64,000 bases of DNA from a virus. The stretch is from positions 1 to 64,000 of IMG/VR virus record IMGVR_UViG_3300036782_000015; one strand, given 5' to 3'. Under the pieces are notes generated by a model that saw only the letters and a list, made by a program, of their open reading frames with translations, did no database searches and was not told the DNA's origin. Numbering within the stretch: position 1 is the first letter of the stretch; each line of letters starts with the position of its first letter. The translations under genes were made by a program, and so were the position numbers. Of this stretch, positions 23,953 through 34,000 are shown in pieces.

Positions 23953-23981
23953 AAAAGGTAGCCCATTACAGGCTACCTTTT
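23953..23981. terminator. Bidirectional terminator between convergent operons
   Basis: AAAAGGTAGCC (23953-23963) pairs perfectly with GGCTACCTTTT (23971-23981). It stops the + strand gene ending at 23950 and the - strand operon ending at 23966. Confidence 0.88.
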
Positions 23982-24790
23982 AATATTGAATTTATTATGC
24001 TTGTGAAGTCCTCATGTGTACCGCTCAAGAATCTAACCATCGAGCCATGTGTATAGTGCCTCATCTCATTTACCCTTTTAGTAAATCCATTCTTAGTTAG
24101 CAGTAGAACACGTGGAAACGTAGGATTCTTGAACACCCTTGCCCATTCCTTTTTAGCCCACTGTTTGGACACATAGTAATCTTTGTAATTGTCAATCTTG
24201 TTCTTGATAACTGGTAACCTCTCCGTACCCATGTCGACCTCAATGCAGAATCCATATCCTTTACCCTTACACTTAAATATGCAAACAATGTCGGGCTTAA
24301 TGTAACTGTCATTAAAGTGGCACTTCTCTTCCGTCTCATAATATATCATCTCTCCCTCTAGTTCTCTAAGAACTTCCTGTATCAAGCATTCACATTCATT
24401 AATGGCAACTCTGTGGTGAAACCCATCTACTAGTGTTCGCTGACCAGAAGAGTCATACTTGATTGGCTTGCTATATCGTTCTATATCCAGCAAGATTATT
24501 CCTGCCCTATCGATACATATGTGCTGTTGAGCACTCCCTTGCCCTAAAGGTACAGGGGGAACTATTCTATCTATCACGTGCTTGTTGAACAATACCTTCA
24601 GCCTACTATTAAGCCTTTCAGTGCTAGCAAACTCTGGATAAAGGCGTTGTATCTGGTCTCTCTTTAGCACCCTCTTATCAGCCAGTAATCTTAACAACCC
24701 CATATCCCTCTCTGTAATGTTGTTGCAGTTATTGTAAACCCACTCTTTGGTAATCTGCTTTACCTCTGGACGCTTATAAATACCTTTCAT
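23966..24790 (-). CDS. Replication-relaxation family protein
   Basis: 274 aa from the ATG at 24790, which directly follows the upstream stop (TGATATG) and has GGAGG 9 nt before it; an earlier ATG triplet would overlap that gene. N-terminal winged-helix part (TERDMGLLRLLADKRVLKRD), then a PD-(D/E)XK-like half with IKPDIVCIF and FCIEVDMGTE. This is the replic_relax family, found on Gram-positive plasmids and ICEs and often next to conjugation ATPases. It probably binds DNA. Last gene of the minus-strand operon. Confidence 0.75.
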   Translation of the reverse strand: MKGIYKRPEVKQITKEWVYNNCNNITERDMGLLRLLADKRVLKRDQIQRLYPEFASTERLNSRLKVLFNKHVIDRIVPPVPLGQGSAQQHICIDRAGIILLDIERYSKPIKYDSSGQRTLVDGFHHRVAINECECLIQEVLRELEGEMIYYETEEKCHFNDSYIKPDIVCIFKCKGKGYGFCIEVDMGTERLPVIKNKIDNYKDYYVSKQWAKKEWARVFKNPTFPRVLLLTKNGFTKRVNEMRHYTHGSMVRFLSGTHEDFTSIINSILKGSL

Positions 24791-24791
24791 A

Positions 24792-27527
24792 TCAGCCTTC
24801 CTCCAGTCCATCATCATTTAATACTTCCTCTAGTAATTCCATTATTTCTTCTGCACCTTCTTCATCTCCATCCTCTAGTAGCTTAGTGACCAGTGCACCA
24901 GCATCCTTTTCTAGTGTACGCAGTTCCTCTTCATGTTGTTCTCTACGCTCATCTTCATCAATCTCTATAGGGGTGTTTTTTGGTGGGGTTTTGCCCTTCT
25001 TGATGTCTTCCTCTACTAACTCGACACCGAACTCCGCATTGTTCTTGTATCGGAACAACTCATTCAGCACTTCCTGTTTCGGTCTTCCCATAAGCTTTGC
25101 ATTCTCATCGTATAAGTCATTATTGTTATACCTCTTGTATCTCTTTTCAGGCTCATTAATAGCCTTAACCATAAATGGAGGAGTAGCTTCACCCTTCTTA
25201 TTGTACATCTTTAGCTTAACGATTGCATGATGCTTAGGCATACCCTTTGCTATTTGGTCTGCACTAAATTCTGGTTGAATAACGGACTCCAGTTCTTTTA
25301 AGTTATCCCTATCTGTCTGGAATACTACATAGTGTGGACCAGCCTTACGTATCATCTTAGGCAAGGACTTATCCATAGCCTTTAACTGCTCCCATCCATG
25401 GAACATAAATGTTAGACCACAACGGTACTTTCTGTAACGAGTTAACATATTTCTCCAACGCTCACTACCTTTGATATAGTGGTCTGGCTCATCTAGTATG
25501 ATGAAGCATGGCTTACGGTCATCCTCTTCCTCAATATCCTCCCTGCTGATAATAGCAAGGTTGAATTTAGATATCAAGAAGGATACTAATGCGGTCTGGT
25601 TCTCTTCACCTAGGGTTTCATTAGCCTTGACTAATACTAGGCAACCCTCATCCATCCACTTTCTGAAGTCTACTATATATTCACCATTCTCATCCTTTTT
25701 AGGCTTCTGAAGTATGAAACTCTTTAGAGCCTTCTTACGCATTACAACCGCTAAACGTCTGAATGCTTGTTCATATATAGCTTTTCTGTCCTCTTTAGAC
25801 ATCTTCTCATGGAAGTACTCCCAATCACTACGCAACTCTGGGTCATCAATATGAGGAATAATGCTGGCACGGTACTCCGCATTACTCAGCATATTCTCTA
25901 TATCCTGCAACGTTGCATCTGGAGTAGTGTATACTGCACGTACAGCATTCTCAACCCAGATTCTAGATGTCATGCTTAACTCCGTACCTGCAACTAACTC
26001 AACATATGACAGAATCTCTTCAGTAATTAAATCCTCAATAACATCAGCATTTCTACCCCTGAATATTTCATTCCATCCTAACCCTACTGGGTTCTCTGAA
26101 TTTAAGAAATCTATTATCTTTACCTTATGTCTCTTCTCTGGTGGAACTAGATTCAGTATCCTCTGTGCTAATTTACCATCTGCCGCATCTACTACCATAG
26201 ACCCATAACCTTTCTCCAGTGCATCTAGAGCAAAGCTAGCTGCAAAGGTAGACTTACCGCTACCTGGCTCTCCTATAACTACACGTGACATACACAGTAG
26301 GTTAGGGTTATCTCCTGCGAAGTATACTGTCTTAGTTTCACCATCTGTGTCCTCATATGTCGCAAACGGTATACCCTTACCATCATCTTCAAATATTTCT
26401 TTAGGTATATCTGCTGAACTCCTATGCTGAACGGTATCCAGCTCATTTTGGTGCTCCATTTGTAGTACTTGGTCTGGTACCTGTATGATCTTGGATAGCT
26501 CTAGGGAACATAACTCATCCCCATTCATCTTAACAACCATCTTACGGTCTCTAATATTCTTGAGGGCTTTAACTTTGTCTCTACCCTCTACTTCTTTAGA
26601 CACTAGTTTGTTATCTCCTTCCAGTGGGTGAAACCCTGCTGTAAGGCTTCTCGTGATGGCTCTACGTCTATCTTCATCATCAGATACAGCTATTGCATTA
26701 AAGTTAATCTTGAACCCTTCGCTATACTTCTTACGTAGTGAGGATTTAGAACGTCCCTCATGTGCCTTTCGCTTTAGCGACTCTCTAAATTCAGTATTCA
26801 TCTCCCATCCAGGTATGAGGAAATCTCCTACTATGTTCATAAGTTCCTCAAGAACAAGACCCATGACGTTAGCCAAGCCCACCAAGACGTTTTTTGATGT
26901 AAACATCGTACCTTTTTTCTTAGGGATGACGTTCTTCTCCTTGATATTTTCACCAATCCCAACCATAGTCTCATTCCAAGACTCACCAAGCGGTCTCATC
27001 CCTAGTTGTAGTATCGCATAATCCTCATCCTTAAGATAGTTTGTAGTCGTCAGGATAGAGTCAAGTGGGGTATACTTGGGGTTCTCCATGTCCAAGGCTA
27101 GTGCTGGGTGATTCTGCAAGGACATCTTAGTGACACTAGTATTGTCCATGTGAAGGTTAGGCAGAGGGTCTTTCACCTCCCTTACTGTAGAACGTTTCCA
27201 GCATCTTCTTATCTGTCTAGTAAGTGCATCCTTTAAATGGTCTTTATCAGGTATAACCAAATAGAACTTTACCTGACCTTTGTGTATAACCACTTCCCAC
27301 CATATGTTCATCTCTGGAGTGTATATTAATCTACCGCCTCCAAAGTTTATACGCTTGTTTAGTGGAGTAAACAATGTTGCAAACTCTGTTATAAGCCATC
27401 TAACTCCTGCATTGGACGTCATCTTACTAGGAATAACCTCCAGTGTCACATACTGTATTTCCTCTTTTTCTACTAAACGTATCTTCTCCTTAGTAGTTGG
27501 ATTAACAATATTAACCTCTGGTTGCAT
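24792..27527 (-). CDS. VirB4/TraG-type secretion or DNA-transfer ATPase
   Basis: 911 aa. N-terminal domain of about 380 residues (includes FGGGRLIYTPEMNIWWEVV), then a RecA/FtsK-like ATPase: Walker A GEPGSGKST at 419-427, Walker B CFIILDEPDHY at 674-684, and FMFHGWEQLK (sensor-like). The last 50 residues are an acidic helical tail (EEEL, EEIMELLEEVL). The layout fits HerA/VirB4/TraG ATPases of type IV secretion and conjugation. FtsK-type pumps also share the motor, but no gamma domain or four-helix N-terminus is seen. Between three small membrane proteins and a replication-relaxation gene, it is probably the motor of a transfer or secretion-like machine. Confidence 0.78.
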   Translation of the reverse strand: MQPEVNIVNPTTKEKIRLVEKEEIQYVTLEVIPSKMTSNAGVRWLITEFATLFTPLNKRINFGGGRLIYTPEMNIWWEVVIHKGQVKFYLVIPDKDHLKDALTRQIRRCWKRSTVREVKDPLPNLHMDNTSVTKMSLQNHPALALDMENPKYTPLDSILTTTNYLKDEDYAILQLGMRPLGESWNETMVGIGENIKEKNVIPKKKGTMFTSKNVLVGLANVMGLVLEELMNIVGDFLIPGWEMNTEFRESLKRKAHEGRSKSSLRKKYSEGFKINFNAIAVSDDEDRRRAITRSLTAGFHPLEGDNKLVSKEVEGRDKVKALKNIRDRKMVVKMNGDELCSLELSKIIQVPDQVLQMEHQNELDTVQHRSSADIPKEIFEDDGKGIPFATYEDTDGETKTVYFAGDNPNLLCMSRVVIGEPGSGKSTFAASFALDALEKGYGSMVVDAADGKLAQRILNLVPPEKRHKVKIIDFLNSENPVGLGWNEIFRGRNADVIEDLITEEILSYVELVAGTELSMTSRIWVENAVRAVYTTPDATLQDIENMLSNAEYRASIIPHIDDPELRSDWEYFHEKMSKEDRKAIYEQAFRRLAVVMRKKALKSFILQKPKKDENGEYIVDFRKWMDEGCLVLVKANETLGEENQTALVSFLISKFNLAIISREDIEEEDDRKPCFIILDEPDHYIKGSERWRNMLTRYRKYRCGLTFMFHGWEQLKAMDKSLPKMIRKAGPHYVVFQTDRDNLKELESVIQPEFSADQIAKGMPKHHAIVKLKMYNKKGEATPPFMVKAINEPEKRYKRYNNNDLYDENAKLMGRPKQEVLNELFRYKNNAEFGVELVEEDIKKGKTPPKNTPIEIDEDERREQHEEELRTLEKDAGALVTKLLEDGDEEGAEEIMELLEEVLNDDGLEEG

Positions 27528-27538
27528 CTTAACCCCTC

Positions 27539-27739
27539 CTATTTAAACCATCCTTGCATAAATTCTGGTAACACATACATCATCTCTTCCCTAGCCTTCT
27601 CACCTATAGATTCAAACGTTGCATCAAAGATACCACCCATTATACCACCAATGAACTTTAGACCATTACCAGATAGCTCTGGTACTGCTAATGTTACTAC
27701 TACATATATGCAAGAATATGCCAGCTTTCTAATCTCCAT
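27539..27739 (-). CDS. Small membrane protein 3 of the minus-strand operon
   Basis: 66 aa with hydrophobic stretches YSCIYVVVTLAVPEL and LKFIGGIMGGIF. Starts at ATG 27739, 1 nt after the stop of the 47-aa gene and preceded by GGGAGG. 11 nt upstream of the ATPase gene. No family recognised; a membrane component is likely. Confidence 0.65.
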   Translation of the reverse strand: MEIRKLAYSCIYVVVTLAVPELSGNGLKFIGGIMGGIFDATFESIGEKAREEMMYVLPEFMQGWFK

Positions 27740-27740
27740 A

Positions 27741-27884
27741 CTAGTGACCTCCCATCCACATGCCCATCAGCACTTTGACAGTCTTGTATGCCACTTGATA
27801 TGAGAATCCAGGAGCTATATATTCAATAGCTCCCATTATCAAGAGCGTCTTAGCTATACTCCCAACCAGCCTAACCCAAAACAT
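27741..27884 (-). CDS. Small membrane protein 2 of the minus-strand operon
   Basis: 47 aa starting MFWVRLVGSIAKTLLIMGAI, with two short hydrophobic stretches. GGAGGT precedes the start. Starts 1 nt after the 44-aa gene's stop. Unrecognised. Confidence 0.6.
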   Translation of the reverse strand: MFWVRLVGSIAKTLLIMGAIEYIAPGFSYQVAYKTVKVLMGMWMGGH

Positions 27885-27885
27885 G

Positions 27886-28020
27886 TTATTGTACCTCCAG
27901 TAATACTTCTACTGCCTTGTTTACTGACCACGTTAATACCTTGATAGTCACCATACCTGCCGTAACTAATCCTGCACCAACAACGTATAACACTTTATTG
28001 CTTACTGGTTTCTTCTCCAT
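27886..28020 (-). CDS. Small membrane protein 1 of the minus-strand operon
   Basis: 44 aa; LYVVGAGLVTAGMVTIKVL is a probable membrane helix after a short basic N-terminus (MEKKPVSNK). AGGAGGGG precedes ATG 28020. Unrecognised. Confidence 0.6.
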   Translation of the reverse strand: MEKKPVSNKVLYVVGAGLVTAGMVTIKVLTWSVNKAVEVLLEVQ

Positions 28021-28031
28021 TTGAACCCCTC

Positions 28032-28412
28032 CTATTGAAATTGTTTAGCATTCATGCTTAAAGCTTTGTCTAGGTCTATCTCCTTGTCTTGCTGTACAAG
28101 TATCTTTGGCTTGGATTCTTTTATCTGAGGTGCAGGCTTCTTATCTGACACTGGGAGCTGAGGTTTCTGATGGGATACTTTTTTCTTGGGTTTACTAGGG
28201 TTCTCTGTTCTCTGATGTGATTTGATAGTAGTCTGTGACATTATCTCCGATGTGATGTTATCATATAACCTCTGTGCCAGTTTTGGGTCATGCTCTACTG
28301 CGAATAATACACACTCCCTGATAAAACCGCTTCTATCCTTCATATCATTTAGATGGTCTTCCATCCATTCTGTAGACTTAGTTGTTCTGAAGGTATACTG
28401 TTTATCAGCCAT
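28032..28412 (-). CDS. Ribbon-helix-helix protein, ParR-like adaptor
   Basis: 126 aa from ATG 28412. Residues 4-45 have an RHH pattern: strand YTFRTTK, helix EWMEDHLNDMKDRSG, helix FIRECVLFAVEHDP. The rest is a long Lys/Pro/Gln-rich linker ending in LDKALSMNAKQFQ, a short amphipathic helix that could contact an actin filament. An RHH gene directly after a ParM-like gene is the standard ParMR order, so this is probably the centromere-binding adaptor (inference). Confidence 0.65.
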   Translation of the reverse strand: MADKQYTFRTTKSTEWMEDHLNDMKDRSGFIRECVLFAVEHDPKLAQRLYDNITSEIMSQTTIKSHQRTENPSKPKKKVSHQKPQLPVSDKKPAPQIKESKPKILVQQDKEIDLDKALSMNAKQFQ

Positions 28413-28413
28413 A

Positions 28414-29451
28414 TCACACACCCCTAATCAGGTTTCTAATACCCCATTTATTATAACCTCTAGCCACTGCAAATTGTCCACTCTGTGATAGCTCTGGGTT
28501 TGGGAAGTGGTCTTTCATATGAGGATACAGTGAAGCACCTCCACCACCAGCAAATATTATCTTATCTAGGAAGTTAATCTCATCCTTCCAGAAGTTATGC
28601 AGTCTATTAGTGATGTCGTAAGCTACGTTTTCGTAAGCCCAATCTATTGTTGGAGCCATGTCGTACACCTTAGTTCCAGACTTCAATACTCTGCTCTGTA
28701 CTACGTGCTCTGCTTTGTACAGTGGGAAGTTTACTCCTGTGTGGTCTAATATGTTATCAGAGACGACTTGGTTTACAGAGTTCATAGCAACGCTGAAGCT
28801 AGTAGTTAGATGCTCAATGTTATTGAAGACCTCACACACGTAGATGTCTGTAGTTCCAAATCCTATATCGACTACTGCTACTCTTGACTTAGCTAAGTTT
28901 GTGTCTGCTATCTCACCTTTGTCATCCAGTATTCTATCCATTAAAGCCCCAAATGGTTGTGGTACAAATAAGCCCTTTCTACCTCTAACTGACCCATTCA
29001 CTCTTATCCCAGAGGACTCTATGTTGTACTCATGCTTATTGTCCATGAACAGGCTCTTGATAGCTTCCTTATATTGGTCGAAGTGACTGACTGGTAGACC
29101 TGATACAAAGTTAGTTTCCTTTGCCCCACCATTCATCCCTAGACCGAGGATAGTTCCTAGTAATATCTTTGTAACCTCACTATCAAAGCGGTCACTCGTC
29201 AGAGAGTGCTTAACAATTCTAGATTGAGTTATTGCCAAGTCTGATACAAAGTGTACACCTTGAGCGTCTCTGTACTCTATGTCATCATGCTTATTGTCTA
29301 CTGCAAACGAGTCTGCTACGCTTTTGTTGAATTCCTTTAGCTTTCTATCCTTCCCTACACCCACAACCGACTTAATTATGATTGGTTTGCCATTGATGAT
29401 ACCTTTTGTATACATATAACCCAAGTCAACTGATGTAATCGCTTTACTCAT
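28414..29451 (-). CDS. parM: ParM/Alp-like actin
   Basis: 345 aa from ATG 29451 (AAGGAGG upstream). Actin-fold motifs: phosphate 1 SVDLGYMYTK, the PVSHFDQY segment, phosphate 2 VAVVDIGFGTTDIYV, adenosine IIFAGGGGASLYP. ParM-type actins form ATP-driven filaments that separate plasmids; some phages use actins to move genomes. With the RHH protein it should form a type II partition system. It is one nt from the RHH gene and 13 nt downstream of the VirB2-like gene, so partition and transfer-like genes share one transcript. Confidence 0.88.
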   Translation of the reverse strand: MSKAITSVDLGYMYTKGIINGKPIIIKSVVGVGKDRKLKEFNKSVADSFAVDNKHDDIEYRDAQGVHFVSDLAITQSRIVKHSLTSDRFDSEVTKILLGTILGLGMNGGAKETNFVSGLPVSHFDQYKEAIKSLFMDNKHEYNIESSGIRVNGSVRGRKGLFVPQPFGALMDRILDDKGEIADTNLAKSRVAVVDIGFGTTDIYVCEVFNNIEHLTTSFSVAMNSVNQVVSDNILDHTGVNFPLYKAEHVVQSRVLKSGTKVYDMAPTIDWAYENVAYDITNRLHNFWKDEINFLDKIIFAGGGGASLYPHMKDHFPNPELSQSGQFAVARGYNKWGIRNLIRGV

Positions 29452-29464
29452 ATCTGATTCCTCC

Positions 29465-29941
29465 TTAGAAAGATATAGATGAACGGATGATATTCGAAAT
29501 CCAACGTAGCATCTGGAACATTGTAGGTAACATTGAGATTCCAATGTAAGCATACCCTACGTTCTTAATTCTGTTCCATCCAGCATCCTTACTCTTACCT
29601 GTTGCCATCATGATAAACCCTATCAGAGCGTAGAACCAAAGTATTGGCTCTGCTATTGCAGTGAATATATCAACTATATCCATGAACCCTCTGCGTAGGT
29701 CATTGGCATTTTGAGTAGCTGCAAATGCATGTGTAGCTCTCATCCCTAGTCTAGTAACGATTGCTGTAGGTAGAATCATCTCTCCGAACCATCTAACCAA
29801 GGACTTTCTACCCTGCTCTAACTCTCCAGTATGACGTGATTTATTTTCATACTGAGGTTCCACGAAATCCCACTTAATTACTTCAGACTTCTTAACGTTG
29901 CTCACCTGAATACCTTTACTCGTAGTTACCAATTGCGTCAT
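29465..29941 (-). CDS. Two-TM membrane protein, VirB2/TrbC-pilin-like
   Basis: 158 aa, ATG 29941 with GGAGGAG in front. Residues 50-75 look like a late signal-like segment ending HAFAATQ. Two hydrophobic helices follow at about 98-115 (EPILWFYALIGFIMMATG) and 127-146, split by a short basic loop (KSKDAGWNRIK). This is the organisation of VirB2/TrbC pilin precursors, but the N-terminal 50 residues are polar and unusual. First gene of the operon. The pilin assignment is inference. Confidence 0.55.
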   Translation of the reverse strand: MTQLVTTSKGIQVSNVKKSEVIKWDFVEPQYENKSRHTGELEQGRKSLVRWFGEMILPTAIVTRLGMRATHAFAATQNANDLRRGFMDIVDIFTAIAEPILWFYALIGFIMMATGKSKDAGWNRIKNVGYAYIGISMLPTMFQMLRWISNIIRSSISF

Positions 29942-30008: not shown

Positions 30009-30116
30009 GTTTCGGTTTTGCTGAAGAGTGGGACACCTAGAGAATCAAAGAGTGTACTAGCATTGCCCCCTCATTACCAAAAAGTGACGGTGGGTCGTTT
30101 CGGGGGGTCGTTTCGG
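30009..30116. repeat. GTTTCGG repeats upstream of the ParM operon
   Basis: GGGTCGTTTCGG occurs twice in tandem at 30092-30103 and 30105-30116 (13-bp period). A related TTTCGGTTTTGCT lies at 30010-30022 and TTTCGGGTTTGCT at 30112-30124. They are directly upstream of a ParM/RHH operon, where centromere (parC) iterons usually lie. Confidence 0.45.
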
Positions 30117-33500: not shown

Positions 33501-33627
33501 AAAAGATTTTGTGAGACGGTTTTTTTAAGTCAGAAGGGTCACAAGGGGAGAAGCTCACTGGCGGTTACCATGAGACTTTCAATACTTTGACTTTTACTAT
33601 AACAAGTATCCTTAGGAGGAATTTAAA

Positions 33628-33936
33628 ATGAATAAACAAGAAACTGTAAAAGCTATCTCTGTACGTACTGGATTAACACAAGTGGATGTAAACAAAGTGT
33701 TTACTGCACTTAAAGAAATCACTGTAGAAACTCTACAAAAAGGTGAAAAGCTACAATTAACTGGTTTCTGGGGAGTAGAGCCTGCATACCGTGCACCACG
33801 TAAAGGTTTCGACCCTATTAAGAAAGAGCCAATGGAAATCGCTGCTACTGTAGGTGTTCGTATCAAAGCTGGTGAAGATTTAAAGAAAGCTGTAAAAGGC
33901 TTAAAAGTAGAAGACTTTGCTCCTAAAGCAGAGTAG
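33628..33936 (+). CDS. HU/IHF-like histone-like protein
   Basis: 102 aa. Typical HU layout: N-terminal helices (MNKQETVKAISVRTGLTQ), then GFWGVEPAYRAPRKGFDP matching the GFGxFxVRxRAAR-type arm region, and a C-terminal helix. HU bends and compacts DNA and is used in phage replication and late transcription. It has its own leader and terminator, pointing to high expression. Confidence 0.92.
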   Translation: MNKQETVKAISVRTGLTQVDVNKVFTALKEITVETLQKGEKLQLTGFWGVEPAYRAPRKGFDPIKKEPMEIAATVGVRIKAGEDLKKAVKGLKVEDFAPKAE

Positions 33937-34000
33937 TCTATAACGATCATAGCTGCATATATCTGAACGGTATCGTTCACACATACTTCTGAAAGTGTTC

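Follow-up and report, generated by a model that had tools for sequence, protein, structure and literature searches.

A conserved operon of SPO1-like phages that may encode a reduced DNA translocon derived from type IV secretion

Why would a phage carry, in one inverted operon, genes resembling those of plasmid partition beside genes resembling those of conjugation? In the window, a stretch of 64 kb out of a 70,702-base virus record, a block at 23966-29941 on the minus strand encodes, from 5' to 3', a pilin, a ParM-like actin, a ribbon-helix-helix (RHH) protein, three small proteins, an ATPase of 911 aa and a member of the Replic_Relax family:

29465..29941, minus strand: VirB2/TrbC-like pilin, 158 aa; homologue of SPO1 gp29.1
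28414..29451, minus strand: ParM-like actin, 345 aa; homologue of SPO1 gp27.9; ALP_N, MreB-like_C, PHROG 691
28032..28412, minus strand: ribbon-helix-helix DNA-binding protein by sequence pattern, 126 aa; homologue of SPO1 gp27.8
27886..28020, minus strand: 44-aa protein with one hydrophobic helix; homologue of SPO1 gp27.7
27741..27884, minus strand: 47-aa protein with one hydrophobic helix; homologue of SPO1 gp27.6
27539..27739, minus strand: 66-aa protein, weakly hydrophobic; homologue of SPO1 gp27.5
24792..27527, minus strand: VirB4/VirD4/HerA-class DNA-translocase ATPase by profile and fold, 911 aa; Walker A 418-IGEPGSGKS
23966..24817, minus strand: Replic_Relax protein, 283 aa (274 aa from 24790); PF13814; homologue of SPO1 gp27.3

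All eight ORFs lie where the original prediction had placed them. It had given the spacing between genes as 1-13 nt, which holds for six junctions (13, 1, 11, 1, 1 and 11 nt, in order); at the last, the ATPase and Replic_Relax genes overlap by 26 nt or are separated by 1 nt, depending on the start codon. A Shine-Dalgarno-like sequence precedes each of the eight genes and is weakest at the RHH gene, a search for promoters and terminators near the operon gave nothing convincing, and no tRNAs or RNA families were found across the window. The block had also been described as the only one on the minus strand, and it is the only multi-gene one: a greedy choice of ORFs gave 86 on the plus strand and 8 on the minus strand, of which four fall in this block and the other four, 64-122 aa long, stand alone. 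At 33612-33980, a minus-strand 122-aa ORF overlaps a plus-strand 102-aa ORF.

The phage is SPO1-like, with near-identical contigs of ~139 kb, and the block matches 19 Bacillus subtilis SPO1-type phage records at 68-69% at the DNA level. The complete gene order was found again in SPO1, SP8 and IMG/VR relatives, and its core recurs in dozens of unrelated phages, so the block is not a chance assembly; its genes stay linked in other phages rather than being scattered, the outcome that would have spoken against the original prediction. SPO1 itself (Okubovirus, Herelleviridae) has the counterparts 29.1, 27.9, 27.8, 27.7, 27.6, 27.5, 27.4 and 27.3, identically ordered and likewise inverted, labelled in its record as 'partition protein', 'replication initiation by nicking' or simply gpN.N, with no function given. 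The three small proteins are all conserved in SPO1. They had been called tiny membrane proteins, a description that suits those of 44 and 47 aa; in the 66-aa protein no transmembrane (TM) segment was found at the scan threshold.

The ATPase had been predicted to be conjugation-like, and both profile and predicted fold agree. Its profile matched HerA (4.8e-11) and also DptH, TdpA and VirB4 in the PDB, and its AlphaFold2 model (pLDDT 77.6) gave R388 TrwK/VirB4 (2.2e-15) and TrwB, a VirD4 protein (6.2e-12, target TM ~0.6), as top Foldseek matches. The full-length TM-score of the model against VirB4 is low (0.30 by query length), so that the E-value, the probability and the motor domain carry the assignment. 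The alternative of a packaging terminase or FtsK, which would have told against the original prediction, was rejected on profile and fold: neither appeared among the 50 best Foldseek matches of the model, the FtsK Pfam profile did not match, and a PHROG terminase match was weak (4e-5). Sequence and model support a place for the protein among the type IV secretion ATPases, and paralogy favours a VirD4-like rather than a VirB4 identity. Its homologues include SPO1 gp27.4 (58% identical), SPP1 gp32 and gp156 of Bacillus phage G. The whole, diverse ATPase alignment has too few conserved stretches for a degenerate search, and such searches were run with sub-alignments. We also considered a defence system and rejected it; PADLOC gave only a weak match, of mad8 to the motor core (1.6e-11), probably through a shared HerA-type core.

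In the pilin, a conserved A-x-A motif resembling a signal-cleavage site (HAFAA) stands ahead of two hydrophobic helices, as seen in the alignment and the TM scan. The window protein itself matches PF18895 (T4SS_pilin) at E 0.0011, below that family's cut-off; among 12 members of its family, 7 match PF18895 and 4 match PF04956 (TrbC). A VirB2/TrbC-type pilin is thus recognised from family-level matches, motif and helices together. The family profile also matched TP84_47 of phage TP-84 (E 7e-42), which its coordinates and the present analysis identify as the pilin of that phage. Mass spectrometry of CsCl-purified TP-84 particles detected TP84_47, and the ATPase, TP84_48, was not determined there (PMC5889276). 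The TP-84 pilin is therefore produced and gets out of the cell in one form or another; the detection would fit a pilus, a virion protein or a contaminant.

The actin matches ALP_N (6.6e-20), MreB-like_C (7.6e-19) and PHROG 691 (partition protein), and its closest solved structure is pCBH ParM (1.7e-27). With the RHH gene directly downstream after a 1-nt gap, the pair resembles type II ParMRC systems, from which it differs in sitting inside a putative translocon operon. The RHH protein had no match in Pfam and is ParR/ParG-like by pattern only, KQYTFRTTKSTEWMEDHLNDMKDRSGFIRE being common to the window protein and its SPO1 relatives. When parC-type repeats were sought near the operon, only a two-copy 13-nt tandem (CGGTGGGTCGTTT / CGGGGGGTCGTTT) was found at 30088-30113, well upstream within the 640-bp region preceding the operon; it is a possible RHH-binding site.

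The last protein of the operon belongs to the Replic_Relax family (PF13814, 7.2e-19, 69.1 bits against a curated cut-off of 25.3). Its model (pLDDT 80.9) combines a winged helix with a PD-(D/E)XK-like fold, and Foldseek matched it to FokI (8e-4), the XisH-family structure 2okf (4.8e-3, probability 1.00) and the nickase Nt.BspD6I. Residues E163, D176, E193, D195, K207 and Y211 are invariant from phage proteins to a Streptomycetaceae plasmid homologue. No known relaxase (HUH/MOB) was found within the block, where Replic_Relax, with this fold instead of HUH, is the only protein of the kind.

How widely these genes travel together was examined from the ATPase outwards. By tblastn it was found in 67 of 50,697 phage records, whose hosts are almost all Bacillus, Geobacillus, Lysinibacillus, Brevibacillus, Alicyclobacillus or Terrisporobacter, and in 22 of 72,556 plasmid records, only 3 of which had a single place covering 80% of the query. 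Iterative profile searches over all fetched loci gave 105 ATPase loci, with 59 representatives below 80% identity. Module counts refer to 48 distinct loci (<80% identity, at least 3 kb upstream); since loci were fetched by ATPase similarity, the frequencies are conditional on the ATPase. A pilin lies beside the ATPase in 43/48, an RHH protein is present in 37/48, an actin in 20/48 and an M23 wall peptidase in 15/48, where it precedes the motor; Replic_Relax follows the ATPase in 12 of the 54 loci with enough downstream sequence, being missing from most small-phage versions. The core of the module is RHH protein, pilin and motor, with actin, Replic_Relax and wall peptidase as optional parts. 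Carriers of pilin and ATPase comprise SPO1-like, SPP1/GBK2-like, Slashvirus and FADO/Kenyattavirus-type phages, TP-84, prophages and plasmids. The loci with no profile-detected pilin include that of phage G, where Pfam identifies gp150 as a pilin, and that of a Terrisporobacter phage, where inspection shows a pilin-like protein of 2-3 TM segments. The M23 proteins have a C-terminal membrane part in common with the two-TM SPP1 gp31.2; in L054, L055 and L062-L065, the peptidase encoded before the ATPase is fused to the two-TM domain that stands free in SPP1.

By these counts the ParM/RHH pair, which the original prediction joined to the ATPase, is not central to the block: the actin is optional, being absent from 28/48 distinct loci, and pilin and ATPase persist together. 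Some relatives, moreover, have two different RHH genes, of which one follows the actin and the other precedes the pilin; four representatives (L048, L052, L061 and L062) have two RHH genes. A terminal F-containing tail (GNFL, SKFI and SSFI are examples) occurs in 17/24 RHH proteins encoded directly behind an actin and in 6/24 encoded elsewhere (Fisher p 0.003, post hoc and uncorrected for kinship of the sequences), and would be compatible with ParR-like docking to actin. We infer that the core RHH protein works with the translocon and that an actin comes with an RHH partner of its own; the single RHH protein of the window may serve both.

Parts of the module have been noted in other phages. 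SPP1 gp31-gp31.1-gp31.2-gp32 (examined as locus L050, whose 44,010 bases are close to the SPP1 genome in length) forms an RHH-pilin-2TM-ATPase core homologous to that of the window, from which it differs in having neither actin nor Replic_Relax. The SPP1 study proposes a 'trans-membrane translocon' of gp32 with gp31.1/gp31.2, and in its consulted part the authors do not name the VirB2 likeness of gp31.1 (PMC6316719). In the Tyrovirus Thrax, gp11-18 bring ParM, RHH, a T4SS-type ATPase and replication-relaxation genes together in one block, as in the window; they were called plasmid-like, and capture from a conjugative plasmid was proposed (PMC9703825). In the large siphophage type, examined in FADO and BcoS-136, pilin and ATPase are separated by an M23 peptidase or by what is left of its membrane part. 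The TrbC-RHH-Replic_Relax-FtsK genes of Novomoskovsk and Bolokhovo, interpreted as a relic of plasmid segregation (PMC9658697), share the pilin and RHH families of the window, whereas they have an FtsK/SpoIIIE motor, a truncated Replic_Relax and no actin.

Gram-positive conjugative type IV secretion systems (T4SSs) are among the nearest known systems, having a VirB2-like pilin, a VirB4/VirD4-class motor and an optional wall hydrolase. VirB1-like enzymes accompany T4SSs, which parallels the M23 peptidase before the motor in some phages; the window block has no VirB1-like wall hydrolase. Of the VirB4 and/or VirD4 ATPases expected in a T4SS, it has one only. Unlike those systems, the block also encodes no VirB3/PrgI, VirB6 or VirB8 homologue and no known relaxase, and hence no complete conjugation channel. 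The likeness to T4SSs thus falls short of membership among full conjugative T4SSs, since a VirB6/TrbL polytopic channel protein, sought among the eight block proteins, and a known relaxase were not found. The archaeal Ced and Ted systems, which import DNA with a pilin, a HerA/VirB4-type ATPase and a VirB6-like channel (PMC9905601), are precedents, being small T4SS derivatives with a VirB2-like pilin, a HerA/VirB4-like ATPase and no classical relaxase. The window block has their pilin and ATPase and lacks the VirB6-like channel (CedA/TedA); they are chromosomal, whereas the block is phage-borne and has tiny membrane proteins instead.

Three variants are telling. In phage G (NC_023719.1, ~86,970-93,336), gp150-156 include a pilin above the Pfam cut-off (gp150), a TrbL/VirB6 protein (gp153; TrbL_4, 1.8e-11), a VirB4 (P-loop_TraG, 1.6e-15) and an ATPase of the window family, with a Replic_Relax gene nearby. 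By sequence they resemble a type IV secretion core that is nearly complete, VirD4-like protein included; among the phages examined this set is the nearest to a full T4SS and alone has VirB4 and VirB6. By eye, gp154 resembles VirB3/PrgI, for which Pfam gave no support. On an Embleya plasmid, PrgI, VirB4, a window-family ATPase, Replic_Relax and NlpC/P60 lie nearly side by side. In genomes that have two T4SS ATPases (phage G, with gp155/gp156, and the Embleya plasmid), the window family supplies the non-VirB4 partner. In an ATPase tree, rooted on two paralogues only, the family excludes the VirB4 paralogues and its first branch unites phage G with Embleya, an order suggestive of phage modules arising by reduction of a T4SS. 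For capture from a plasmid or integrative element, raised in the original prediction, there is no more than a hint, in where the Streptomycetaceae plasmid homologue and phage G stand in the tree. In the andromedavirus Novomoskovsk (MT422786.1, 42,119-44,644), an FtsK/SpoIIIE motor (PF01580, 4.6e-18) replaces the T4SS-type ATPase beside the window's pilin (9e-21) and RHH (3e-16) families and the truncated Replic_Relax; this pairing favours DNA as the cargo.

From these genes we predict, with a probability of about 0.5, that the operon encodes a reduced DNA translocon derived from type IV secretion. TraM-like accessory proteins present DNA to VirD4 in conjugation, and the RHH protein would similarly bind phage DNA and hand it to the ATPase. 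Replic_Relax, with its predicted winged helix and restriction-endonuclease-like fold, might nick or otherwise process the DNA, and a hexameric VirB4/VirD4-class motor would drive it through a membrane structure in which the VirB2-like pilin, once processed, is joined by the small membrane proteins. In the versions that have one, a ParM-like actin may position the DNA or the machine. Phage DNA would then probably cross the envelope of its infected host, with a neighbouring cell as the likeliest destination. Gene identities, conserved linkage and the predicted motor and nuclease folds are what we observe; assembly, cargo, direction and recipient are read from them. Against this reading stand the lack of VirB6, VirB8, VirB3/PrgI and a known relaxase in the block, the non-essential SPP1 genes 31.2 and 32 (PMC6316719) and the many small-phage versions that have no nuclease. 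The spread of compact modules through many unrelated phages of spore-formers suggests that these phages may move DNA across the envelope. That such phages, lytic ones included, pass unpackaged DNA from cell to cell by a pilus or channel is a stronger claim that we regard as unlikely, though if true it would be a second, conjugation-like route of phage spread.

Other readings have to be weighed against such a translocon. The one we take most seriously, while still thinking it improbable, is a role in the virion or in entry: the VirB2-like protein would be a particle-associated membrane protein, and the motor would help to pull or anchor phage DNA, entering or leaving, at the membrane, while none passes from cell to cell. 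The presence of TP84_47 in purified particles (PMC5889276) and the signal-cleavage-like site and two helices of the pilins would fit, but phage preparations can carry along filaments or membrane fragments, and the TP-84 ATPase is absent from the particle list. The module also lies outside structural clusters, near replication or early genes or at a prophage edge; in SPP1, 31.1-32 are described as early and 31.2 and 32 as non-essential (PMC6316719). Alternatively, a ParMRC with accessory replication genes could segregate phage DNA, pilin and ATPase being only membrane anchors. This view, preferred by the Novomoskovsk authors (PMC9658697), has in its favour a true ParM-like actin with an RHH protein directly behind it and the excess of F-containing tails at that position, and we nonetheless consider it quite doubtful. 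The optional actin disfavours a module for partition alone, and the separate RHH genes of some loci also speak against it; upstream of the operon the repeat search gave no clear iterated centromere beyond the two-copy tandem, and partition leaves VirB2, the M23 peptidase and the VirB4/VirB6 of phage G unexplained.

Ranked after these is export of a phage protein, or alteration of the envelope, by a T4SS-like machine acting in superinfection exclusion or attack on competitors. T4SSs can secrete proteins, mad8 weakly matches the motor, and in many prophage contigs the ATPase gene is at or near the contig end by lysis-side genes, where accessory genes sit. DNA-handling partners nevertheless persist (the RHH protein in most loci, and the nuclease-like Replic_Relax), the motor can be exchanged for one of the FtsK/SpoIIIE DNA-pump family, and no conserved effector-like gene was found beside the module; we consider this reading about as doubtful as partition. 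Least probable is delivery to the forespore, with actin and RHH protein segregating phage DNA and a membrane pump translocating it in sporulating hosts. Hosts in almost all records are endospore-formers, and Spo0A occurs in 24/24 carrier genomes out of 399 Bacilli; its background of 326/399 (82%) makes this weak evidence for an endospore link (~0.008 before correction for relatedness). The module also occurs in integrated prophages, which need no such help, and is missing from many phages of spore-formers.

Conjugation machines are regarded as a property of plasmids and integrative elements, and phages as spreading in virions. A pilin, DNA motor and DNA-binding protein are nevertheless conserved in the lytic model phages SPO1 and SPP1, and with the fuller T4SS set of the jumbo phage G they make conjugation-type transport by phages testable in B. 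subtilis. A translocon would give a coherent role to SPO1 27.3-29.1 and SPP1 31-32, annotated as hypothetical, and such modules would be very small T4SS derivatives for structural work. We found no unifying account of them in the literature searched and no report of DNA transfer, a pilus or a filament for them; parts were noted in the SPP1, Tyrovirus and Novomoskovsk papers, and the unified module appears undescribed there. Two records among the relatives stand apart. In Microcystis phage MaeS (MT362618.1), the ATPase is 53% identical to its homologue in phage Stahl of Bacillus megaterium; a gene for a SleB-type lytic transglycosylase lies nearby, and the cyanobacterial host on record looks doubtful. 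In phiBsKO1-1 (LC805024.1), tblastn gives five ATPase places and a split match, a pattern reflecting either rearranged modules or an assembly problem.
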